Origin: Deltaproteobacteria bacterium
Lineage (GTDB): Bacteria > Myxococcota_A > UBA796 > GCA-2862545
NCBI GenBank assembly: GCA_006226595.1
Contig: SBGP01000092.1
Coordinates: forward strand, 186,001-250,000
Length of the DNA stretch: 64,000 nucleotides
Direction of reading: 5' to 3'
In this document: piece by piece, positions 11,813 through 13,795 of the stretch
How the letters are laid out: the number at the start of each line of letters is the position of its first letter
How positions within the stretch are numbered: the first letter of the stretch is position 1
The notes under the pieces: model-generated
Database searches by the model: none
Told to the model about the DNA's origin: nothing
What the model saw: the letters and a program-made list of their open reading frames with translations, nothing else
Translations under genes and position numbers: made by a program

Positions 11813-12235
11813 ATGCGCACGATCACGCTCGTCTCGTTCGTCCTTCTCACCGCCTGCGCCGGGAGCGACGAGCCCGACCCGGACTTCACGCTCGACCCGG
11901 GCTTCGGCGACGACACCCGCGGCCCGTTCAGCAGTGCCGGCGAGGTCGAGGACACGACCTGCGGCGCGTGGTTCCCGACCACGGCCCAGCACCAGGTCAC
12001 CCTCACCGAGAACTTCCTGGCCCTGCACTTCATGACCGACACGGTGGATGCGCCGTTCAAGGTCATCGAGGGCAACAACACCTGGTGCAGCGACACCGAC
12101 AGCACCCCCCTGCCCGTCGTGTCGAGCGGCGCGTGGAGCGGCGGCACCTTCGCCGTCTACGTGGGTTCGCCGACCGAGGGCGGCTCCACCCCCTACGACC
12201 TCACCGTCGCCGAGGGGCTGCCCGACGGCATGTAG
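11813..12235 (+). CDS. Small secreted lipoprotein
   Basis: A 140-residue protein with signal peptide and lipobox at Cys15 (LLTAC). A 30-residue Asp/Pro-rich linker is followed by a beta-rich domain with two Cys (CGAWF, WCSDT) that could form a disulfide. It starts 53 bp after hflX and may be read with it. The fold resembles pre-peptidase C-terminal (PPC-like) beta sandwiches only loosely. The function is unknown. Confidence 0.7.
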   Translation: MRTITLVSFVLLTACAGSDEPDPDFTLDPGFGDDTRGPFSSAGEVEDTTCGAWFPTTAQHQVTLTENFLALHFMTDTVDAPFKVIEGNNTWCSDTDSTPLPVVSSGAWSGGTFAVYVGSPTEGGSTPYDLTVAEGLPDGM

Positions 12236-12289: not shown

Positions 12290-13795
12290 ATGCGACTTCT
12301 CCCCTTCCTTCTCGCCGCCTGCGCACCCACGGTTCGCGAGGCGCCGCTCGACACCGCCACCGGCGATAGCGCGATGGAGGAGACGGACTCGCCCGTCGAC
12401 ACCGGGGACACCGCCGAGCCCGTGACCCGGCCCGAGGCGCGTCTCGACGCGGTCCTCGCCTGGCCGGGCGACCGGACGTACTTCTTCGCCGGCACCGAGT
12501 ACATGCGCTTCGACGCCGCCAATGGCGAGGTGGACGCGGGCTACCCGCTCGACCTGGCCACCTACTGGGACGGCGCGCCCGCCGAGCTCGATGCCGCCGC
12601 GCTCGTCGACGAGGACACGGTCCTGTTCTTCCGCGGAGCCGAGGTCGTGGACTACGACCGGGTCGCAGACGCCGCCCGAGGTCCCGCCGAGCCCCTCACC
12701 CAGCGCTTTCCCGAGCTTTGGGCCGACGGCATCGACGCGGCGGCGGTGGTGGACGGCGTGCTGTGGGCGTTTCGCGACCAGGCGGTGCGCACCGTGGACC
12801 TGGCCAGCGGAGACACGGAAGAACAGCCGCTCTCCGCGGTGGTGGGCGCTCCCGAGACCGGCGTGGACGCGGCCTTCGCCGAGGGGCGGCGGCTGCACCT
12901 GTTCGCGGGCGAGCACTTCGCGACCGTCGACCTCGACGCTCGCCAGTCCGTGGACGGCGGACGCTTCGTCTTCGCGTGGCCCGGACTGTGGGACCCGGAG
13001 GACGGCACCGGCGATGTCGGCGACCGCCTGCCCACCGAGGTTGCCGCCATGCTCGTCGACGACCCGACCCCCGAGGAGGTCGCGGCCCGCAAGGCACGGG
13101 TGCGCCAGAGCATCGTCGGCACCGACTACGTGGACCTCTCCGCGTCCTACCCGCAGTACACCCACTCGGTCGAGGAGCGCCTCGGAGCGTGGGGCTGCCT
13201 GATCCTGTACGACGCCGGTCGCGACGTGCACCGCTTCCGCTGCGCGACCGACACCGCGGGCGCTGGACGGCTGGAGATGGCGCCGCTCACCGTGCCCTTC
13301 GTCGACTGGCGGGCGGCCGCGTACCACGTCGACCAGACCTCGCAGGGCGACTTCTCGGCGGACGCCGGCGCGCCGCTGTCGATCTTCGACGCGGATGGCG
13401 ATGTGTTCTACATCGAGCGCGTCTCCGCCAACGGCGCGACCGGGAGCATCTCGGGCGGCCTCAACATCCGCGTGCGCTACGACAAGGACGGTGTGGAGCA
13501 CCAGATCGGCTTCTCCCACCTGAACACCAACGTGCCCGGGTACGTGCTCGACGCCGCCGCCGACGGCACGCCACTGCCGACCGGCACGGTGTTCGGGTTC
13601 ATCGGCTACACCGGCAACCTGTGGATCGGCGCGCCCCCCGAGGTGGACGGCCCCTACACGGGTAGCGGCGCGGGCCTCCCGGTGTCGCACAGCCACTTGT
13701 GGTTCGCGAACGACCTCGACAACCACACGACGCTTACCCGCGAGACGCGCGAGGCGATCGACTTCAGCGGGCGCTACCCTTACGGCGGCGGCTGA
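12290..13795 (+). CDS. Lipoprotein with four-bladed hemopexin-like propeller and LytM/M23-like C-terminus
   Basis: A 501-residue protein with lipobox Cys11 (LLAAC), followed by a Thr/Asp/Glu linker to about 46. Four repeats of about 45 residues follow, opening LDAVLAW (52), LDAAALV (100), IDAAAVV (149) and VDAAFAE (192), with internal YFFAGTEYMRFD, VLFFRGAEVVDYD, LWAFRDQAV and LHLFAGEHFATVD. These are hemopexin repeats and the count of four matches a complete propeller. From about 310 on, the strands end in SHSHLWF (His467, His469), like the H-x-H of M23/LytM peptidases. The upstream metal ligands (H-x3-D) are not evident, so it may be catalytically dead. It is likely an outer-membrane or periplasmic protein. 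Confidence 0.8.
   Translation: MRLLPFLLAACAPTVREAPLDTATGDSAMEETDSPVDTGDTAEPVTRPEARLDAVLAWPGDRTYFFAGTEYMRFDAANGEVDAGYPLDLATYWDGAPAELDAAALVDEDTVLFFRGAEVVDYDRVADAARGPAEPLTQRFPELWADGIDAAAVVDGVLWAFRDQAVRTVDLASGDTEEQPLSAVVGAPETGVDAAFAEGRRLHLFAGEHFATVDLDARQSVDGGRFVFAWPGLWDPEDGTGDVGDRLPTEVAAMLVDDPTPEEVAARKARVRQSIVGTDYVDLSASYPQYTHSVEERLGAWGCLILYDAGRDVHRFRCATDTAGAGRLEMAPLTVPFVDWRAAAYHVDQTSQGDFSADAGAPLSIFDADGDVFYIERVSANGATGSISGGLNIRVRYDKDGVEHQIGFSHLNTNVPGYVLDAAADGTPLPTGTVFGFIGYTGNLWIGAPPEVDGPYTGSGAGLPVSHSHLWFANDLDNHTTLTRETREAIDFSGRYPYGGG

Follow-up and report, generated by a model that had tools for sequence, protein, structure and literature searches.

The question raised by this locus is what a bacterial lipoprotein might do with hemopexin-like repeats in its N-terminal half and a domain resembling the M23/LytM peptidases in its C-terminal half, and in particular whether that domain would cut its substrate or bind it without cutting. 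The locus lies in a window of 64,000 nucleotides, the whole stretch of DNA that was analysed, from a genome of 7.2 Mb in 117 contigs (G000); all window coordinates given below are on the forward strand.

The gene, its ortholog and the N-terminal region

The open reading frame at 12290-13795 (ATG at 12290, stop at 13795) encodes 501 amino acids, arranged as a short lipoprotein-type signal, an acidic linker, hemopexin repeats, a middle region and a putative M23-like domain. It is a genuine gene, with an end-to-end counterpart in another genome of the genus. The ortholog lies in G001, from the single further species of the genus that the search covered, and was the sole full-length relative among 58 related genomes; the two proteins share 63% identity over residues 6-501 (E 1.4e-199). 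The ortholog gene, with an identical protein, is also present on JAGSGY010000032.1, which belongs to the MAG 'Proteobacteria bacterium isolate GY13CH_bin.7', and a further match to the full-length query, in G039 (E 2e-4), covers residues 9-74 only. Across 492 aligned codons the window gene and the ortholog differ 215 times at position 3, 134 times at position 1 and 116 times at position 2, and this excess at the third position is the pattern of a coding gene. Identity varies along the protein, from 20/47 over residues 1-47 to 106/189 (56%) in the propeller, 64/103 in the middle region and 120/162 (74%) over residues 340-501, the highest value, thus marking the C-terminal part as the most constrained.

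The signal, MRLLPFLLAAC (12290-12322), is short, with 10 residues ahead of the cysteine as judged by inspection of the sequence, and contains the lipobox LAAC. Its cysteine, C11, is kept in the ortholog, and the protein, which the sequence-only reading had called a lipoprotein, is presumably lipid-anchored at this residue. A poorly conserved linker rich in Asp and Thr follows (12323-12439). The middle region (residues 237-339; 12998-13306), which lies beyond the propeller, matched no known family in Pfam, NCBIfam or PHROGs; it carries C303 and C318, the only cysteines of the protein besides C11, both of which are kept in the ortholog and may form a disulfide. On the same strand, 54 bases upstream of the start codon, an ORF of 140 amino acids (11813-12235; MRTITLVSFVLLTAC...) is lipoprotein-like. 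In G001 another gene occupies the position just upstream, and no match to it was found in the window's own genome.

The predicted hemopexin propeller

Several lines of evidence strongly support the assignment of the N-terminal half as a hemopexin domain. PF00045 was the only family reported by Pfam (E=4.6e-12, 46.1 bits against a curated cut-off of 21.3), and in the ortholog the same family was found at E 1.5e-17 and 63.7 bits with two stretches above the cut-off; for the ortholog, too, Pfam reported no family but hemopexin, and NCBIfam gave nothing. Comparison of the propeller region with hemopexin domains of the phylum by hhalign gave 99.3% (E 7.6e-21) over blades 1-3. Sequence matches in the PDB were to the hemopexin domains of MMP-14, gelatinase A, vitronectin and hemopexin, to which a two-sequence profile added the plant hemopexin-fold proteins LS-24, CP4 and DC25 (6ix1), whilst a hemopexin-repeat protein of Streptomyces nojiriensis could be aligned at 31.5% identity over 99% of the propeller.

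The sequence-only reading had counted four repeats, each beginning with (L/I/V)DA, and taken them as a full propeller. The motifs are indeed found as LDA (52), LDA (100), IDA (148) and VDA (192), and a blade HMM, trained on 18 hemopexin repeats from the phylum's other genomes, matched at starts 51, 100, 147 and 191, with four matches also in the ortholog; a fifth match, at residue 310, is noise. Blade 1 (residues 51-99; 12440-12586) carries the PF00045 match (E 4.6e-12, or 9.1e-13 alone) and the match to MMP-14 in the PDB (E 7.2e-14), and blade 2 (residues 100-146; 12587-12727) scored 17.8 bits with the blade HMM and corresponds to the second PF00045 stretch above the cut-off in the ortholog. 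Taken singly, blades 3 and 4 score weakly (E 0.01-0.003 each): blade 3 (residues 147-190; 12728-12859) scored 2.0 bits (E 0.0096), with the hhalign alignment passing through it, and blade 4 (residues 191-236; 12860-12997) scored 3.1 bits (E 0.0043), LS-24 also aligning there. Together, the four blade-HMM matches, the hhalign result and the Streptomyces alignment make four blades well supported by sequence, and a complete four-bladed propeller is thus predicted. The earlier claim therefore stands for the four repeats, of which the last two are weak, and less so for a folded propeller, as a single-sequence AlphaFold2 model of the whole protein reached a pLDDT of 35.

The propeller contains no conserved histidine and no cysteine, which argues against both a vertebrate-like heme site and the type of disulfide found in MMPs, whose propellers are closed by a disulfide between blade 1 and blade 4. 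Heme binding through a conserved propeller histidine was considered and rejected, neither H203 nor H209 being kept in the ortholog. No viral relatives of the hemopexin region were found in a search of viral sequences.

The C-terminal domain and its candidate zinc ligands

The most conserved part of the protein, approximately residues 340-475 (13307-13714), is probably M23/LytM-like. An HMM scan for the two families proposed beforehand recovered Hemopexin (PF00045) only: the C-terminal half matched no family in Pfam, NCBIfam or PHROGs, M23 being missed even at E<=10, and a PDB sequence search with this half gave no M23 match. As the M23 family profile (PF01551) was not reached, the domain is called M23-like here and is not filed in the family. 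Direct profile comparison gave a marginal signal. With hhalign, the pair of C-terminal sequences scored 25.5 (E 0.0027) against 32 M23 domains from the window's own and related genomes (32 of the 37 loci L012-L048, the other five being left out for want of a usable translation), and 0/300 column shuffles scored as high. In this alignment D354, GAPL, FSHL and GTVFGFIGYTGN lie opposite the M23 motifs GxDf, GtPv, YaHl and Gq.iG.vG.TG. A larger M23 profile scored 23.9 (E 0.0043), with 1 of 200 shuffles higher (31.8), and with HMMER the two proteins had single-target E values of 0.005 and 0.008, the real score being exceeded by a few of the shuffles. The reverse search, in which a two-sequence core profile was run against 19 genomes at E<=10, retrieved no M23 genes; besides the two orthologs it returned six weak matches, none of which was M23-like on reading.

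Such values leave room for a reading in which the C-terminal half has no relation to M23 and is a beta domain that resembles it by chance; the protein would then be a binding lipoprotein of the hemopexin type whose C-terminus is specific to the genus. This reading would account for the lack of a curated family match, for the shuffles that now and then reach the M23 score (with the larger hhalign set, HMMER and MAFFT) and for the confinement of this C-terminus to the genus, as seen in 2/377 genomes of the phylum and 2/63 of the order. However, the profile score, the gap pattern, the terminal HxH and the order of motifs all fit M23, and the M23 profile outscored five other profiles (hemopexin domain, blades, MACPF, PhoD and reversed M23), the best of which reached 18.6 with hhalign, and we regard a chance likeness as improbable.

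If the domain is M23-like, its ligands can be proposed. The sequence-only reading had found the first zinc ligands unclear, having overlooked the candidate motif H346-(x)7-D354 (13325-13351). H410, within FSHL (13517-13519), is the candidate for the central histidine of M23 (YaHL) in both the hhalign and MAFFT alignments, and H467-S-H469 (13688-13696) is the candidate HxH, evident in the sequence and aligned by MAFFT. The motif SHSHLWF, earlier placed at the very C-terminus, is present at residues 466-472, but 29 residues come after it, and the spacing from TGN to SHSH is approximately 22 residues, as against 4 before the HxH of ordinary M23 domains. The M23 order of H(x)nD, central histidine and HxH is thus present, with a marginal alignment behind the assignment, and the LytM likeness proposed earlier has in its favour this order of motifs and the marginal profile statistics, set against the absence of a family match. 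The proposed zinc set comprises H346, D354 and H469, whilst H410 and H467 would assist in catalysis.

When aligned by MAFFT with 59 viral M23 domains (59 of 80 loci, the remainder having contained stops, been too short or been near-duplicates), H346 falls on the M23 histidine in 58/59 and D354 and H410 on their counterparts in 59/59, whilst the register of the HxH (HSH or HLW, against HLH) varies with where the row ends are cut. As the three motif columns also received H, D and H from 19 of 200 shuffled pairs, the MAFFT alignment by itself proves little; in further shuffles an HxH arose by chance in the 58-residue tail in 4% of cases, and a histidine in a given 10-residue stretch in 27%.

A review of the M23 peptidases (PMC9662197) describes the H(x)nD spacing as variable, with H(x)7D in phi29 gp13 and H(x)12D in LasA. 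As gp13 has exactly the spacing of the candidate motif, the domain may be catalytically active, and the earlier suggestion that it may bind but not cut is for that reason no longer the best reading. That suggestion corresponds to a rival explanation that keeps the architecture and takes the LytM-like domain to be a degenerate one without catalysis, as in EnvC/NlpD, which binds peptidoglycan or activates an amidase, with the propeller as a sensor. We consider this rather unlikely. Some loss of catalytic-type residues would be expected in such a domain, whereas H346, D354, H410, H467 and H469 are all kept in an ortholog that differs at 37% of residues overall; to its credit are the position four residues before D354, which is canonically H and is here T350, the very low M23 profile scores, as a diverged domain would give, and the existence of degenerate LytM factors, which the same review mentions (PMC9662197).

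A model of residues 262-501 was built with the viral M23 rows truncated ahead of their HxH so that the HSH of the window protein was not forced into place, which leaves the last strand poorly defined. Mean pLDDT was 54, with the last strand and its HxH below 50; ten-residue blocks over 352-441 averaged 68-84, except for a value of 50 at 382-391. Foldseek gave the phage lytic endopeptidase LysTt72 as its best match (E 0.94), its other PDB matches being unrelated chains at E of approximately 1 or more. With VIA-align, 31 of the 32 top rows (Z 6.1 to 4.1) were chains of the M23/LytM fold, some so identified by title and others assigned to this fold by us; LytU scored 6.1, LytM 5.9, Csd3 5.8 and phi29 gp13 (3csq) 4.8. 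Row 25 is a cyanophage ejectosome chain whose title gives no fold identity, and the first clearly unrelated chain stands at rank 33 (Z 3.9). As M23 rows were part of the model input, which makes the comparison circular, the likeness to LytM and lysostaphin is a sign of consistency and no proof. The domain shares with the M23B peptidases LytM, lysostaphin and phi29 gp13 the order H...D, His, HxH, and its model resembles them; it differs in being reached by no M23 family model.

A proposed targeting role and related architectures

The explanation we favour, with reasonable though far from full confidence, is that of an exported lipoprotein whose propeller positions a zinc peptidase of the M23/LytM type on peptidoglycan. 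The protein would be exported and probably anchored in the outer membrane; the four-bladed propeller would bind a ligand and so hold the peptidase domain at its substrate; and the C-terminal domain would cleave, or less likely only bind, the stem or cross-link peptides of peptidoglycan. We infer that the propeller is the targeting module and peptidoglycan the substrate. The presence of a propeller together with a domain like those of wall peptidases on one lipoprotein suggests that bacterial hemopexin domains can have a targeting role in envelope hydrolases, as in the MMPs, rather than one in heme carriage. The two-species set offers a small system in which such a role could be tested.

A bolder proposal, which we put forward tentatively, is that the protein is an independently evolved bacterial counterpart of the MMP design, in which a surface-anchored M23-type peptidase with an H(x)7D motif uses the hemopexin propeller as an exosite. 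Its substrate could then, just as tentatively, be the cell's own wall, the wall of prey or another protein matrix. MMP-14 and MMP-2 provide the best PDB sequence matches and have PF00045 blades in a propeller joined to a zinc peptidase, as is proposed here, whereas the window protein is a bacterial lipoprotein with no propeller cysteines. In the MMPs the order of domains is the opposite, and their peptidase belongs to M10, which is unrelated to the M23-like domain.

Nothing joining hemopexin with M23/LytM turned up in the literature searched, the word hemopexin being absent from the M23 review (PMC9662197) and two papers that mention both hemopexin and LytM being unrelated, to judge by title and the opening of the abstract. 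Among the genomes searched, none from another genus showed the combination; the earlier view that it is undescribed thus remains without a counter-example. Hemopexin itself is rare in the phylum (15/377 genomes, the two of the genus included). No relatives of the C-terminus were found in viral contigs, comparison with phages gave two weak matches (E 0.3), and a search of wider genome contigs returned only the known ortholog (1 relative among 23 pattern matches).

The comparisons suggest that what is new is the pairing of hemopexin with an M23-like domain, and that fusion of hemopexin to a hydrolase recurs. In the same phylum, a 633-aa open frame on the reverse strand (L050, in G324) has hemopexin blades followed by a peptidoglycan amidase of a different catalytic family (Amidase_2, N-acetylmuramoyl-L-alanine amidase, E 3.3e-12), and WP_329583243.1, from a Streptomyces plasmid, also joins hemopexin to a hydrolase, which is in this case M35 and N-terminal. 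The plant seed proteins LS-24, CP4 and DC25 have a single four-bladed propeller, as is predicted for the window protein, several of them aligning over repeats 2-4, and differ in having no second domain. For DC25 a four-bladed structure and binding of a heme analogue have been shown (PMC6934871), whereas the window propeller has no conserved histidine. Among bacteria, hemopexin domains are also present in the photopexins of Photorhabdus, reported as the first known from prokaryotes (PMC2422844); these combine two hemopexin domains and a PA-IIL lectin domain, with no peptidase.

Other hemopexin proteins were also observed. Two loci (L051 and L054) encode PhoD-like phosphatase domains with C-terminal hemopexin repeats, and another in the same phylum (L049) joins hemopexin to a stretch resembling reprolysin. 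Three genomes (G239, G350 and G363) have open frames of 4215-4969 aa that contain many hemopexin repeats. In L056, also of this phylum, a MACPF domain (E 1.2e-18) precedes hemopexin repeats, as it does by eye in L053, L055 and L057, and these four could possibly represent a family of targeted pore-forming proteins.
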